From: a bacterium
GTDB taxonomy: Bacteria > Calescibacteriota > Calescibacteriia > Calescibacteriales > Calescibacteriaceae
Assembly (NCBI GenBank): GCA_030550715.1
Contig: JAUQOU010000004.1
Span: 55,467-88,551, forward strand
DNA: 33,085 nucleotides
Reading direction: 5' to 3'
Below are positions 8,626 to 12,924 of the stretch, one piece after another. The translations under genes were made by a program, and so were the position numbers. Position 1 is the first letter of the stretch. Every line of letters begins with the position of its first letter. Below the pieces are notes generated by a model that saw only the letters and a program-made list of their open reading frames with translations, was not told the origin of the DNA and made no database searches.

Positions 8626-11034
8626 TTAATATTCTTCAAGTTCAGGGTAGAAAGTGAATAGCCCAAGAGAGAAGTCAAATAATCTCAGTGCATCTCCTTT
8701 TTTCCTTATAAGTGGGAGTCCGAAAGACAACCTTATCGGTCCGAACGGAGATATCCATCTTATCTCGATTCCGTAAGAAGCTCTGAAATCTGCTGGGTTT
8801 ATGTTCTGGTATTCTGCGAAGACCTGACCAACATCTGAAAAGAGAACAAGAAATAAACCTATCTGCTTTGATACGGGAAATATGAGCTCAAAGTTTGAGA
8901 TAACTGATTTATTACCTCCGAGAACTATTTGCGATACTGCTCCCGAAGGAGATACATATTGCCTTTTTGGACCGAGTGAAAAATAGTCAAATCCACGGAT
9001 TGAGTAAATTCCTCCGGCGAAGAACCTTTCAGGGTATGGCAAAAATCTTGAAGATGTGAGCCCTCCGCCTAATCCTATTCTTATGTTCGGAGAGAAGACC
9101 AATCCCCATTTGAGTGGGAAGAAGAAAGAAGAAGCTATTCCGCCTTTTACAAAGTACAGATCCCCACCGAAGACCCCGCCTATTTTGCTCCACAAGATTA
9201 TGTTTTTGCCTCGTGTTGGTGCGAATATGTTATCTCTTGTATCGTTTCTTATCTCTGCTCGCAGAAACCTTGAATTGCTTCTGAAAAATCCAGCTCCTAT
9301 ATCATCTTGATAGAACGGAATTCTTCCCCCTGTTCTTCTGTCATATACATCAAGTATTTCCATTCCGGGTGAGAGTACGAATTTTGTTCTTTCTGTCAAG
9401 AAAAGTCCTGTGTTGAACTTTCCTCCGGTTGATATTTTGAGGAAAGGTAGGAAGAAACTCTGGTACCTGAAAAGATTAACCCCCATTATGTAGTCGGTAT
9501 CAAATGCGTGGTCATCTTGGAAGAATAAGTTGAAGAAAGCAAATCCGCCACCTATTGCGAGGTATATCCCAAGGTTTTGCCCTAATCCTCTGAAATTTGA
9601 TATCTGACCTTGAAACAGAAGGAACAGCGATTGGAAGAAATTCCCAAATTGTGGAGAAAATCCACCTCCCAGAGATACCGCTCCAACTCTTCCTTCTTTC
9701 ACTTCAATATCTAAATCAACCTTCCCATCTTGTAAGAATACGGGGTTTATATCAACCTTTTCAAAAAATCCGGTCCTCATAAGTTCTATGTAGCTTTTCA
9801 TTATAGATGTTCGTGAGAATATCTGTCCTTCAAGAAGAGAAAAGTATCTTCTTATAACAAAGTCCCTTGTTCTCGTGTTGCCTTTTATGTTTATCCTTCT
9901 TATGTAAAATATGTTTCCTTTACTTATCTGGTATGTTAGTGATACTTCTCCTTCTTCTTTTCCTTCCTCAATGTTTTTTGATATTAGCGGGTTTACTCTC
10001 ACCTGTGCGAATCCAATATCTTGATATAAACTTGATATCCACTCAATATCTTCAATGACTTTTTTTCTTGAGAAGTACTCTCCTTGTTCTGCTTTTAGAT
10101 TTTGTTTTATCTGGTTTTTTTTAAAGAGCATATCTCCTTCTATATTGATTGATTTTATTTTGTATCTTGGACCTTCTGATACTCTGAAAAATATGAGGGT
10201 TTCTTCTCTTGCTGGGTTGAAAATAACTGCTGGACTTTTTATTTCGGCATCTATAAATCCTGAATCAAGATAAGAGTTTCTGAGGTTATCTTTATCTCCT
10301 TCAAGTAAATTCAGGTCTAACTTTCCTTCTCCTATAATTCTTTTGAGGGTAGAAGTTTCTTTGGTTTGTAGGTATTTTAGATGTTGTTTTTCTTCAATTT
10401 TTTCTGAGCCGGAGAATACTATTTTTTTTACATAATACTTTTCTCCCTCTTTTATTTTCAGTTTGATGTTTGCTCTGTTTTGCGGTAAGTATTCAATCTG
10501 TGGAATAACTTTTGTGAATATGAATCCTTCTTTCTGGTAAGCGTTTATTATATCGTCAATTTGTTTTTTGAGTTTTCTTCTGTCAAGAAAGTCGCCTTTT
10601 TTCATTTTCATTACTTCTTTGAATTTTTCTTCGCTTAGTTCTTTTCTGCCTTCAACTTGAATATCAGATATTATTGGTTTTTCTTTGAGTTTGAATATGA
10701 GAGTTCCTTCTTTGAATTCAGCTTTCACTTCGTCAAAAATTTCAAGGTTGTAGATTCTTTCTATATCTTGTCTTAAAGTTATGGGGTCAAGTTCTTTTCC
10801 TTCTCTGCTTAAAATAACAGACCTTACATACTCTTCGCTCGCTCTCTCTAAACCTTCTATTTTCACCTGATTGATTATATTTTTTCCATGCTCTTTTTCT
10901 TTATCTTCGCTTGTTTCTCTTGCTTCTGATTTCTGAATAAGGGATGGAGAGAAAATATAGTATGTGTTTATGAGAGAAGTTGTGAGTAAAACTATTATGA
11001 TATTTTTTATTTTTGGTTTGAAGATTTTTCCCAT
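8626..11034 (-). CDS. bamA: Outer membrane protein assembly factor BamA (POTRA repeats + Omp85 barrel)
   Basis: Multiple POTRA-like segments (IKGNTRTRDFVIRRYFSLLEGQIFS) and C-terminal barrel ERFFAGGIYSIRGFDYFSLGP...GIEIRWISPFGPIRLSFGLPL. Confidence 0.95.
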   Translation of the reverse strand: MGKIFKPKIKNIIIVLLTTSLINTYYIFSPSLIQKSEARETSEDKEKEHGKNIINQVKIEGLERASEEYVRSVILSREGKELDPITLRQDIERIYNLEIFDEVKAEFKEGTLIFKLKEKPIISDIQVEGRKELSEEKFKEVMKMKKGDFLDRRKLKKQIDDIINAYQKEGFIFTKVIPQIEYLPQNRANIKLKIKEGEKYYVKKIVFSGSEKIEEKQHLKYLQTKETSTLKRIIGEGKLDLNLLEGDKDNLRNSYLDSGFIDAEIKSPAVIFNPAREETLIFFRVSEGPRYKIKSINIEGDMLFKKNQIKQNLKAEQGEYFSRKKVIEDIEWISSLYQDIGFAQVRVNPLISKNIEEGKEEGEVSLTYQISKGNIFYIRRINIKGNTRTRDFVIRRYFSLLEGQIFSRTSIMKSYIELMRTGFFEKVDINPVFLQDGKVDLDIEVKEGRVGAVSLGGGFSPQFGNFFQSLFLLFQGQISNFRGLGQNLGIYLAIGGGFAFFNLFFQDDHAFDTDYIMGVNLFRYQSFFLPFLKISTGGKFNTGLFLTERTKFVLSPGMEILDVYDRRTGGRIPFYQDDIGAGFFRSNSRFLRAEIRNDTRDNIFAPTRGKNIILWSKIGGVFGGDLYFVKGGIASSFFFPLKWGLVFSPNIRIGLGGGLTSSRFLPYPERFFAGGIYSIRGFDYFSLGPKRQYVSPSGAVSQIVLGGNKSVISNFELIFPVSKQIGLFLVLFSDVGQVFAEYQNINPADFRASYGIEIRWISPFGPIRLSFGLPLIRKKGDALRLFDFSLGLFTFYPELEEY

Positions 11035-11833
11035 TAAGTTGAAAATTTATAATTTATGAACTTTGTTATTAACTTGTTTTTTGTGAATTTTTTATGTATT
11101 AAATCAACGCTTTCATCTTTCAGAGGTAAATTTCTGGCATCTGCTTGGATAATGTCTTTTCTAACAGGAACAATATCAAATGCAATAACTTTTCTTCTTT
11201 CTTCTTTGCAAACATCAATTGTTGTTCCTGAACCAGCCATAGGGTCGCATACCAAATCCCCTGGCTCAGTATATCTATACAACAGATTGTAAATTATGAA
11301 AGCGGGCGTAACACCGGGATATTTATTATTCCCTTTTGGAGTATCTCCATAGCTTTGTTTAGGATAATTCCAGAGTGTCGTTGAAAATATTGGAGGTCTG
11401 AACAGTTCATCTTCAAGATTAATGTTATTTGGAAAATTATCTTCTTCAATTTTACCTTCTAACAATAATTTCAGTATTTTTGCACCTTCATCTGATAGAA
11501 TGCTTTTCCAGGATATTTTGAGCTTTTTGAAAATTCTGCTTGCGTTTTTAAGGGTCTTGATTTCCTCATCTGGTTCAACTTCAACATAATATGGATAGCG
11601 CCCGTTGAAAATTGACAAATTTTTATCATACATTCCATCTCCCATTGCCTGAAAAGTTCCATAAAGCACATCTGTATCAAGATTGTAAAGAAAGACAAAA
11701 TCTCCTTTCTTACTGCAAAAACCTTATATGCGTATACTCTATTAGTGGTGAAAATCAGTTTTTCCAGAAATTCATGTTCGTTTTTTTGGGTGCAAGCAAA
11801 GATGAAGCCGTGTCTTTCATTTTTCTCCACCAT
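11034..11833 (-). pseudogene. Frameshifted and 3'-truncated DCD/EVE-like domain plus DNA methyltransferase gene
   Basis: ORF 11471-11833 gives MVEKNERHGFIFACTQKNEHEFLEKLIFTTNRVYAYKVFAVRK. A 1-nt shift at about 11705-11708 joins it to GDFVFLYNLDTDVLYGTFQAMGDG...YPYYVEVE...LWNYPKQSYGDTP...LVCDPMAGSGTTIDVC...RKDIIQADARNLPLKDESVDLI (ORF 11034-11669). The expected DPPY motif after VDLI is missing. Confidence 0.75.
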
Positions 11834-11838
11834 TTTTA

Positions 11839-12924
11839 TTAATTTTTATCAAGTTCTAATATACCGAAGAATTTTTCACCGCAGTTTGCACATTTTCCAT
11901 CTTTTATTCCCACTATATCAGAAGTGAATCCATATCTTCTTATGAGTATTTTGCTACAGCCAGGACAATATGTATGCTCTCCTTCGTTCCCCCATACATT
12001 ACCAACATAAACATATTTTAACTTTTTTTTCGCTATCTCGTACGCTTTTTCAAGAGTTCTGATAGGGGTGGGAGGTCTATCGCTCATCAAAAAGTGAGGA
12101 AAGAATCTTGATATGTGAAATGGTATGTATGGACTTATCTCAGCTACGAAGTCCGTTATCTTTTCGAAATCTGCTTCTGTATCATTCACATCTGTTATGA
12201 CAAGGTATGTTAGCTCAATAAATGGTTTCCCGGTTGATTTGAAGATTTCCCATGTTCTTTTTATTGTGGAAAGAACAGGTTTGAAATGCGCATCACTTAT
12301 TTCTTTGTAGTATTCTTCTTTTGCGAACTTGAAATCTATATTCATAGCGTCAACATACTCACAGAGTTCTTCAAGGGGCTTTGCGCTTATGTATCCGTTT
12401 GTTATCATAACAACTTTCATCTGTGGTTCTAATTCTTTGAGTATTTTTGCAGTGTCTATTATATATTCAAACCATATTGTGGGTTCATTGTAGGTGAAAG
12501 CAACTCCTAAATTCTTTTTTTCTTTGAGTTTTACTGCAAGATAAGCGAGTTTGTCGGGAGTGAGTTCTCTTACGGGTACAACTCCTTCAACAAGCTCCCA
12601 GTTCTGGCAGAACTTACACGAAAAATTGCATCCGACTCCTCCCACGGAGAGAATCTTATATGTTGGAAAGTAGTGGAAGAGTGGTTTTTTCTCTATGGGG
12701 TCAAGGTTTATTGCTCCGATTTTACCGTATGAAGTAGCCCAGAGTTTCCCGCCTCTGTTGACTCTCACAAGACACTTGCCTTCTTCTCCGTCTTTTATTT
12801 CGCATCCTTGGGGGCATAGAAAACACTTTACGGTTAGTCCATCTTCTCTTTTTATGTAGTATTTTGCCTCTTTATTTCCTATGTCTTTTATGGGGAACTC
12901 CTCTTTGTATATTCCAAGCGACAT
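11839..12924 (-). CDS. amrS: AmmeMemoRadiSam-system-type radical SAM enzyme (PflA-like)
   Basis: CFLCPQGCEIKDGEEGKC, radical SAM GVGCNFSCKFCQNWEL, GVAFTYNEPTIWFEY, FHISRFFPHF, C-terminal zinc-like YCPGCSKILIRRYGF...CANCGEKF. Confidence 0.9.
   Translation of the reverse strand: MSLGIYKEEFPIKDIGNKEAKYYIKREDGLTVKCFLCPQGCEIKDGEEGKCLVRVNRGGKLWATSYGKIGAINLDPIEKKPLFHYFPTYKILSVGGVGCNFSCKFCQNWELVEGVVPVRELTPDKLAYLAVKLKEKKNLGVAFTYNEPTIWFEYIIDTAKILKELEPQMKVVMITNGYISAKPLEELCEYVDAMNIDFKFAKEEYYKEISDAHFKPVLSTIKRTWEIFKSTGKPFIELTYLVITDVNDTEADFEKITDFVAEISPYIPFHISRFFPHFLMSDRPPTPIRTLEKAYEIAKKKLKYVYVGNVWGNEGEHTYCPGCSKILIRRYGFTSDIVGIKDGKCANCGEKFFGILELDKN

Follow-up and report, generated by a model that had tools for sequence, protein, structure and literature searches.

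The gene between amrS and bamA in the window (the whole stretch of 33,085 nucleotides analysed here) is very probably a pseudogene. It would be what is left of the modification gene of a Type II restriction-modification system that was acquired horizontally and in which a DCD-methyltransferase fusion was followed by a BsaWI-like PD-(D/E)XK nuclease. Two overlapping open reading frames (ORFs) lie between the flanking genes on the minus strand, 11471-11833 (120 aa) and 11034-11669 (211 aa); read through over a one-base frame change, they give one protein of 246 residues followed by a 20-residue tail. The parts of the locus, in the direction of reading, are these:

11839..12924 (-): upstream flank, an AmrS-type radical SAM gene (TIGR04337, E 2.2e-88; same neighbour in the sister genome G002)
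11708..11833 (-): 42 codons of the first frame, encoding the first part of the DCD domain (MVEKNERHGFIF...VFAVR; PF10539 on the read-through)
11705..11708 (-): position of the one-base shift (AGAAAGGAG), where 33 of 33 relatives stay in frame
11544..11705 (-): second part of the DCD domain, in the second frame (GDFVFLYNLDTDVLYGTF... to about residue 97; PF10539 on the read-through)
11097..11396 (-): N-terminal part of the methyltransferase core, residues 147-246, PPIFSTTLW...DESVDLI (PF01555 and alignment)
11220..11249 (-): AdoMet-binding motif I, CDPMAGSGTT, an invariant region of the PF01555-type family
11096..11097 (-): deletion junction, at which the catalytic half (from DSPYGDN on) and the nuclease gene are absent (alignment with relatives and comparison with G002)
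11034..11096 (-): spacer before bamA, homologous to that of G002; its read-through gives the 20-residue tail
8626..11034 (-): downstream flank, bamA (TIGR03303, E 8.9e-165; same neighbour in G002)

Domains and breaks of the window copy

The read-through matches PF10539 (Dev_Cell_Death) over residues 9-97 (E 1.9e-12; 47.5 bits against a curated cut-off of 27.8) and PF01555 (N6_N4_Mtase) over residues 152-230 (E 2.9e-13, also above its curated cut-off). A preliminary description had proposed a DCD/EVE-like domain joined to a DNA methyltransferase, placed between amrS and bamA; the Pfam search of the reconstructed fusion finds both domains, the first being DCD and not EVE, and the TIGRFAM matches on the flanks bear out the position. 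In the actual DNA the DCD domain is divided over two frames, by a one-base shift at about 11705-11708 just as had been described, and the first ORF alone has no Pfam match because the frame change falls inside the domain. The methyltransferase part retains the AdoMet motif that had been reported for it. The same description had this part end after DESVDLI, short of a DPPY catalytic motif: the truncation is real, but the motif at that point in the relatives is DSPY (DSPYGDN). Catalytic motif IV, (D/N/S)(P/S)P(Y/F), is absent from the window copy, which by its sequence is a relic of the PF01555-type family, not a working member, and lacks what methyl transfer needs. The tail (HKKFTKNKLITKFINYKFST) ends in a TAA that overlaps the bamA start and had rightly been taken for read-through; it is the bamA spacer, common to the window and G002, and as non-coding DNA lies outside the gene.

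A sequencing or assembly error at the frame change would leave a continuous, truncated stump that may bind DNA or AdoMet without catalysis. We consider this unlikely. The change sits in a short A-run and is known from one consensus sequence, and the residues before the break are almost perfectly kept, all of which would suit an error. The truncation, however, is independent of the frame change: the sequence that follows is the bamA spacer found also in G002, the junction is interior to an 88.5 kb contig, no partner nuclease was found in the window genome, and the sister genomes also have broken copies. The single-base shift could be an error; the truncation hardly could.

Relatives of the fusion and their nuclease partner

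A scan of one genome per species returned 80 loci encoding relatives, 33 of them full DCD-methyltransferase fusions. The read-through can be aligned over its full length with these 33 proteins, all of which are in frame across the break, so the match at this locus is not due to chance. In every one of the 33, VDLI/VDMI or an equivalent leads on to DSPYGDN, and most continue for 138-164 residues beyond the truncation point (64 and 106 in L054 and L072, the first of which runs off its contig). The comparison with intact homologues thus went as the preliminary description had anticipated, and the case that it had named as refuting its reading, a homologue family that naturally ends at this point, is not borne out. 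That the window gene is a DNA-binding or regulatory DCD protein ending here by design is very improbable: the ORFs are open up to the bamA start and motif I is kept, but no relative stops at this point, the DCD domain is split by the frame change, and the tail consists of spacer DNA that does not code. A regulated protein produced by programmed ribosomal frameshifting at the A AAG of AGAAAGGAG is barely credible. In its favour, A AAG is a sequence on which bacterial ribosomes can slip, and AAGGAG is similar to a Shine-Dalgarno sequence; against it, the relatives are in a single frame here (33/33) and the product would still be without its catalytic half.

Up to the truncation the window copy keeps 46 of 47 near-invariant columns; after it 21 are lost, DSPYGDN among them. 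The earlier proposal of a modification enzyme now being lost agrees with this truncated, frame-broken relic; the nuclease partner, the origin of the tail from the bamA spacer and the broken copies in the sister genomes go beyond that description. Since nearly all of the near-invariant residues are kept, the inactivation looks recent, and the protein was probably functional until recently. Against L049, the closest relative, the pairwise dN/dS comes to about 0.09 at a dS close to saturation; together with the kept residues this fits recent decay, although the stump could alternatively still be under constraint. A model of the intact L049 protein (pLDDT 79) retrieved only generic methyltransferases in a fold search of the PDB, Trm11 first, with TM-scores of about 0.36 over the query, and so told little more about the protein. 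In an uncultured bacterium (L097:4989-6148) a DCD-methyltransferase lies in two ORFs, with the break elsewhere than in the window; it is possibly another relic.

The nuclease partner was identified through a DCD-less methyltransferase of G058 (67% identical core), which adjoins a BsaWI-like nuclease (PF18643, E 1.2e-35). A homologue of this nuclease lies near 27 of 34 DCD loci, that is, the 33 full fusions and L081, whose DCD domain is cut by the start of its contig, and PF18643 was confirmed on representative partner nucleases. When nuclease ORFs longer than 150 residues were counted, the nuclease followed the methyltransferase at 21 of 22 DCD loci and preceded it at 35 of 42 in the DCD-less group; the motif PD...SxK...RER was present in 62 of these 64 ORFs. 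CCGG-family enzymes read CCGG by an R-(D/E)R motif, and the structure paper on BsaWI gives R169-D170-R171 as its continuous form (PMC4652773). These counts mark the fusion as the putative modification partner of a BsaWI-like (CCGG-family) nuclease in a Type II restriction-modification system. Given the RER motif in the partner nucleases, the lost system would most likely have acted on a site with a CCGG core; the methylated position was presumably cytosine N4. In the draft window genome, searched beside the gene and elsewhere, no BsaWI-like nuclease was found. As an observation apart, L114 and L119-L127 (mostly candidate-phyla bacteria) are DCD-less and have a second, SPPY-type methyltransferase before the BsaWI-like nuclease, so that two methyltransferase genes flank one nuclease gene.

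Fusions of DCD with a methyltransferase are known from archaea and hyperthermophilic bacteria, where a PD(D/E)XK nuclease gene usually follows, and DCD has been predicted to recognise methylated bases (Bell, Wolf and Koonin 2020, PMC7641849). The window carries the same fusion, but broken and with its nuclease lost; moreover, the partner is here identified as BsaWI-like, and BsaWI is absent from the main text of that paper. With BsaWI itself (W/CCGGW; PMC4652773) the nucleases of the relatives share the match to PF18643 and have a continuous R-E-R at the place of R169-D170-R171, with PD...K upstream; the CCGG specificity is putative for the relatives' group, and the window genome has no such nuclease left. 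The DCD-less DSPY pairs (such as those at L016, L100 and L111) have the same methyltransferase core, about 57-76% identical, and the same nuclease family, and differ in the absence of DCD and in the usual order of the two genes.

The closest relative, L049, comes from Candidatus Chrysopegis kryptomonas (Kryptonia). Its methyltransferase core is 96% identical to that of the window copy (79% over the read-through), whereas the aspartyl-tRNA synthetases (AspRS) of the two genomes are 53% identical, a difference that points to horizontal transfer between distant lineages. AspRS was used as the yardstick in place of RpoB, for which there was no match in the Kryptonia genome, probably owing to a gap or a masked stretch. 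A search for carriage on plasmids or phages gave nothing beyond weak matches to methyltransferases, none of which covered more than 56% of the query; one viral-labelled contig has a methyltransferase part that is 60% identical. In the tree, the methyltransferases with DCD group in a supported set (38 rows) that encloses three members lacking the domain, so that one capture of DCD and one loss suffice. Capture of DCD accompanies the switch in the order of the methyltransferase and nuclease genes.

Broken copies in the sister genomes

The three genomes of the genus are incomplete drafts (82-87% complete), so that a gene not found in them may lie outside the assembled sequence. In G002, whose AmrS is 96% identical, the gap between amrS and bamA opens with about the first 18 codons of the DCD gene, near-identical at the DNA level. 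Next come the genes of a second methyltransferase, distinct from the first (304 aa; PF01555, E 2.9e-50), and of an HNH nuclease (215 aa), then fragments of a BsaWI-like nuclease and the same bamA spacer, which shares long identical runs with that of the window. The nuclease fragment is most like the nucleases of the DCD loci (76-79% identical, E 4e-19) and matches PF18643 above the cut-off (E 5.6e-11). Apparently, one restriction-modification system was here replaced by another at the amrS-bamA site. The inserted methyltransferase-HNH pair (L044:3611-5123) appears to be intact and is flanked by the remnants of the DCD system.

A third copy, in G001, does not lie at the amrS-bamA site and precedes a ClpB-like gene (named by eye). 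Here a deletion that took DSPY has put IDVCKEE directly before the methyltransferase's C-terminal part (81% identical to L049), which is in another reading frame, and the nuclease after it is without residues 101-171 (L049 numbering), which are its catalytic core, and is also frame-shifted. The amrS contig of G001 ends inside amrS and its bamA contig starts just before bamA, so that the amrS-bamA gap is unreadable in that genome.

What remains in the window and in G002 is complementary. The window is without the nuclease fragment of G002, and G002 is without most of the DCD domain and the half methyltransferase kept in the window, which argues that the two rearrangements were separate and started from an ancestor with the complete system. 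The losses in the two genomes would then be independent at the level of these rearrangements, and an earlier inactivating mutation shared by both is possible.

Loss of the system

A working methyltransferase would recognise a site with a CCGG core and methylate an exocyclic amino group there, probably that at N4 of cytosine; the host would so be protected from the nuclease carrying the CCGG-family SxK...RER motif. DCD may be an added PUA/EVE-like reader, dispensable for basic site recognition because close DCD-less relatives keep the same kind of nuclease. We infer that a single deletion, with one end within the methyltransferase and the other in the spacer beyond the nuclease, removed the catalytic half together with the whole nuclease gene and joined the methyltransferase stump to the bamA spacer. 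Such a joint loss would be safe, because a nuclease that outlasted its methyltransferase would cut host DNA no longer protected. The one-base frame change in DCD would break the stump as well. The deletion junction has a TAATA microhomology, but in DNA so rich in A and T a match of this length supports no conclusion.

The window genome was also searched for other sources of the activity. A split gene with its catalytic half elsewhere was not found, there being no close catalytic C-terminal half in the rest of this genome; nor was an intact second copy, the only other strong DCD match being a DCD-AAA+ ATPase, a different protein. The latter is an intact fusion of 430 residues on another contig of the genome (L137:2813-4105; G000:C29, ~39312-40604). 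It combines PF10539 (E 1.9e-17) with a CDC48/PAN-like AAA+ ATPase, which also resembles the IetA anti-phage ATPases, and lies directly upstream of the type III-B CRISPR genes cmr1 and cmr5; G096 has a fusion 71% identical to it, with no obvious cmr genes just downstream (by eye). The window genome has yet another methyltransferase that appears to be broken (L138:2858-4083; G000:C9, ~12.3-13.6 kb), in which a stop separates one ORF, with motif I and a SHPPY catalytic-type motif, from a second ORF that continues it.

It is also conceivable, though we hold it doubtful, that DCD, captured once by the methyltransferase of a BsaWI-like restriction-modification system, reads the system's own mark and steers the enzyme to half-methylated sites, as in a maintenance methyltransferase. 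If true, DCD would here be a reader of self marks, not of foreign DNA.

The window gene, read as the pseudogene of a lost modification enzyme, is a well-documented but fairly ordinary case of the loss of a restriction-modification system. DCD-methyltransferase fusions were already known; new are the identity of the nuclease partner, the genus-wide decay and the replacement at one site. With three genomes of one genus holding three differently broken copies, the genus offers a snapshot of a restriction-modification system dying. Naming the nuclease partner turns a general prediction about DCD into a system whose target can be guessed, and which is testable on intact copies such as L049.
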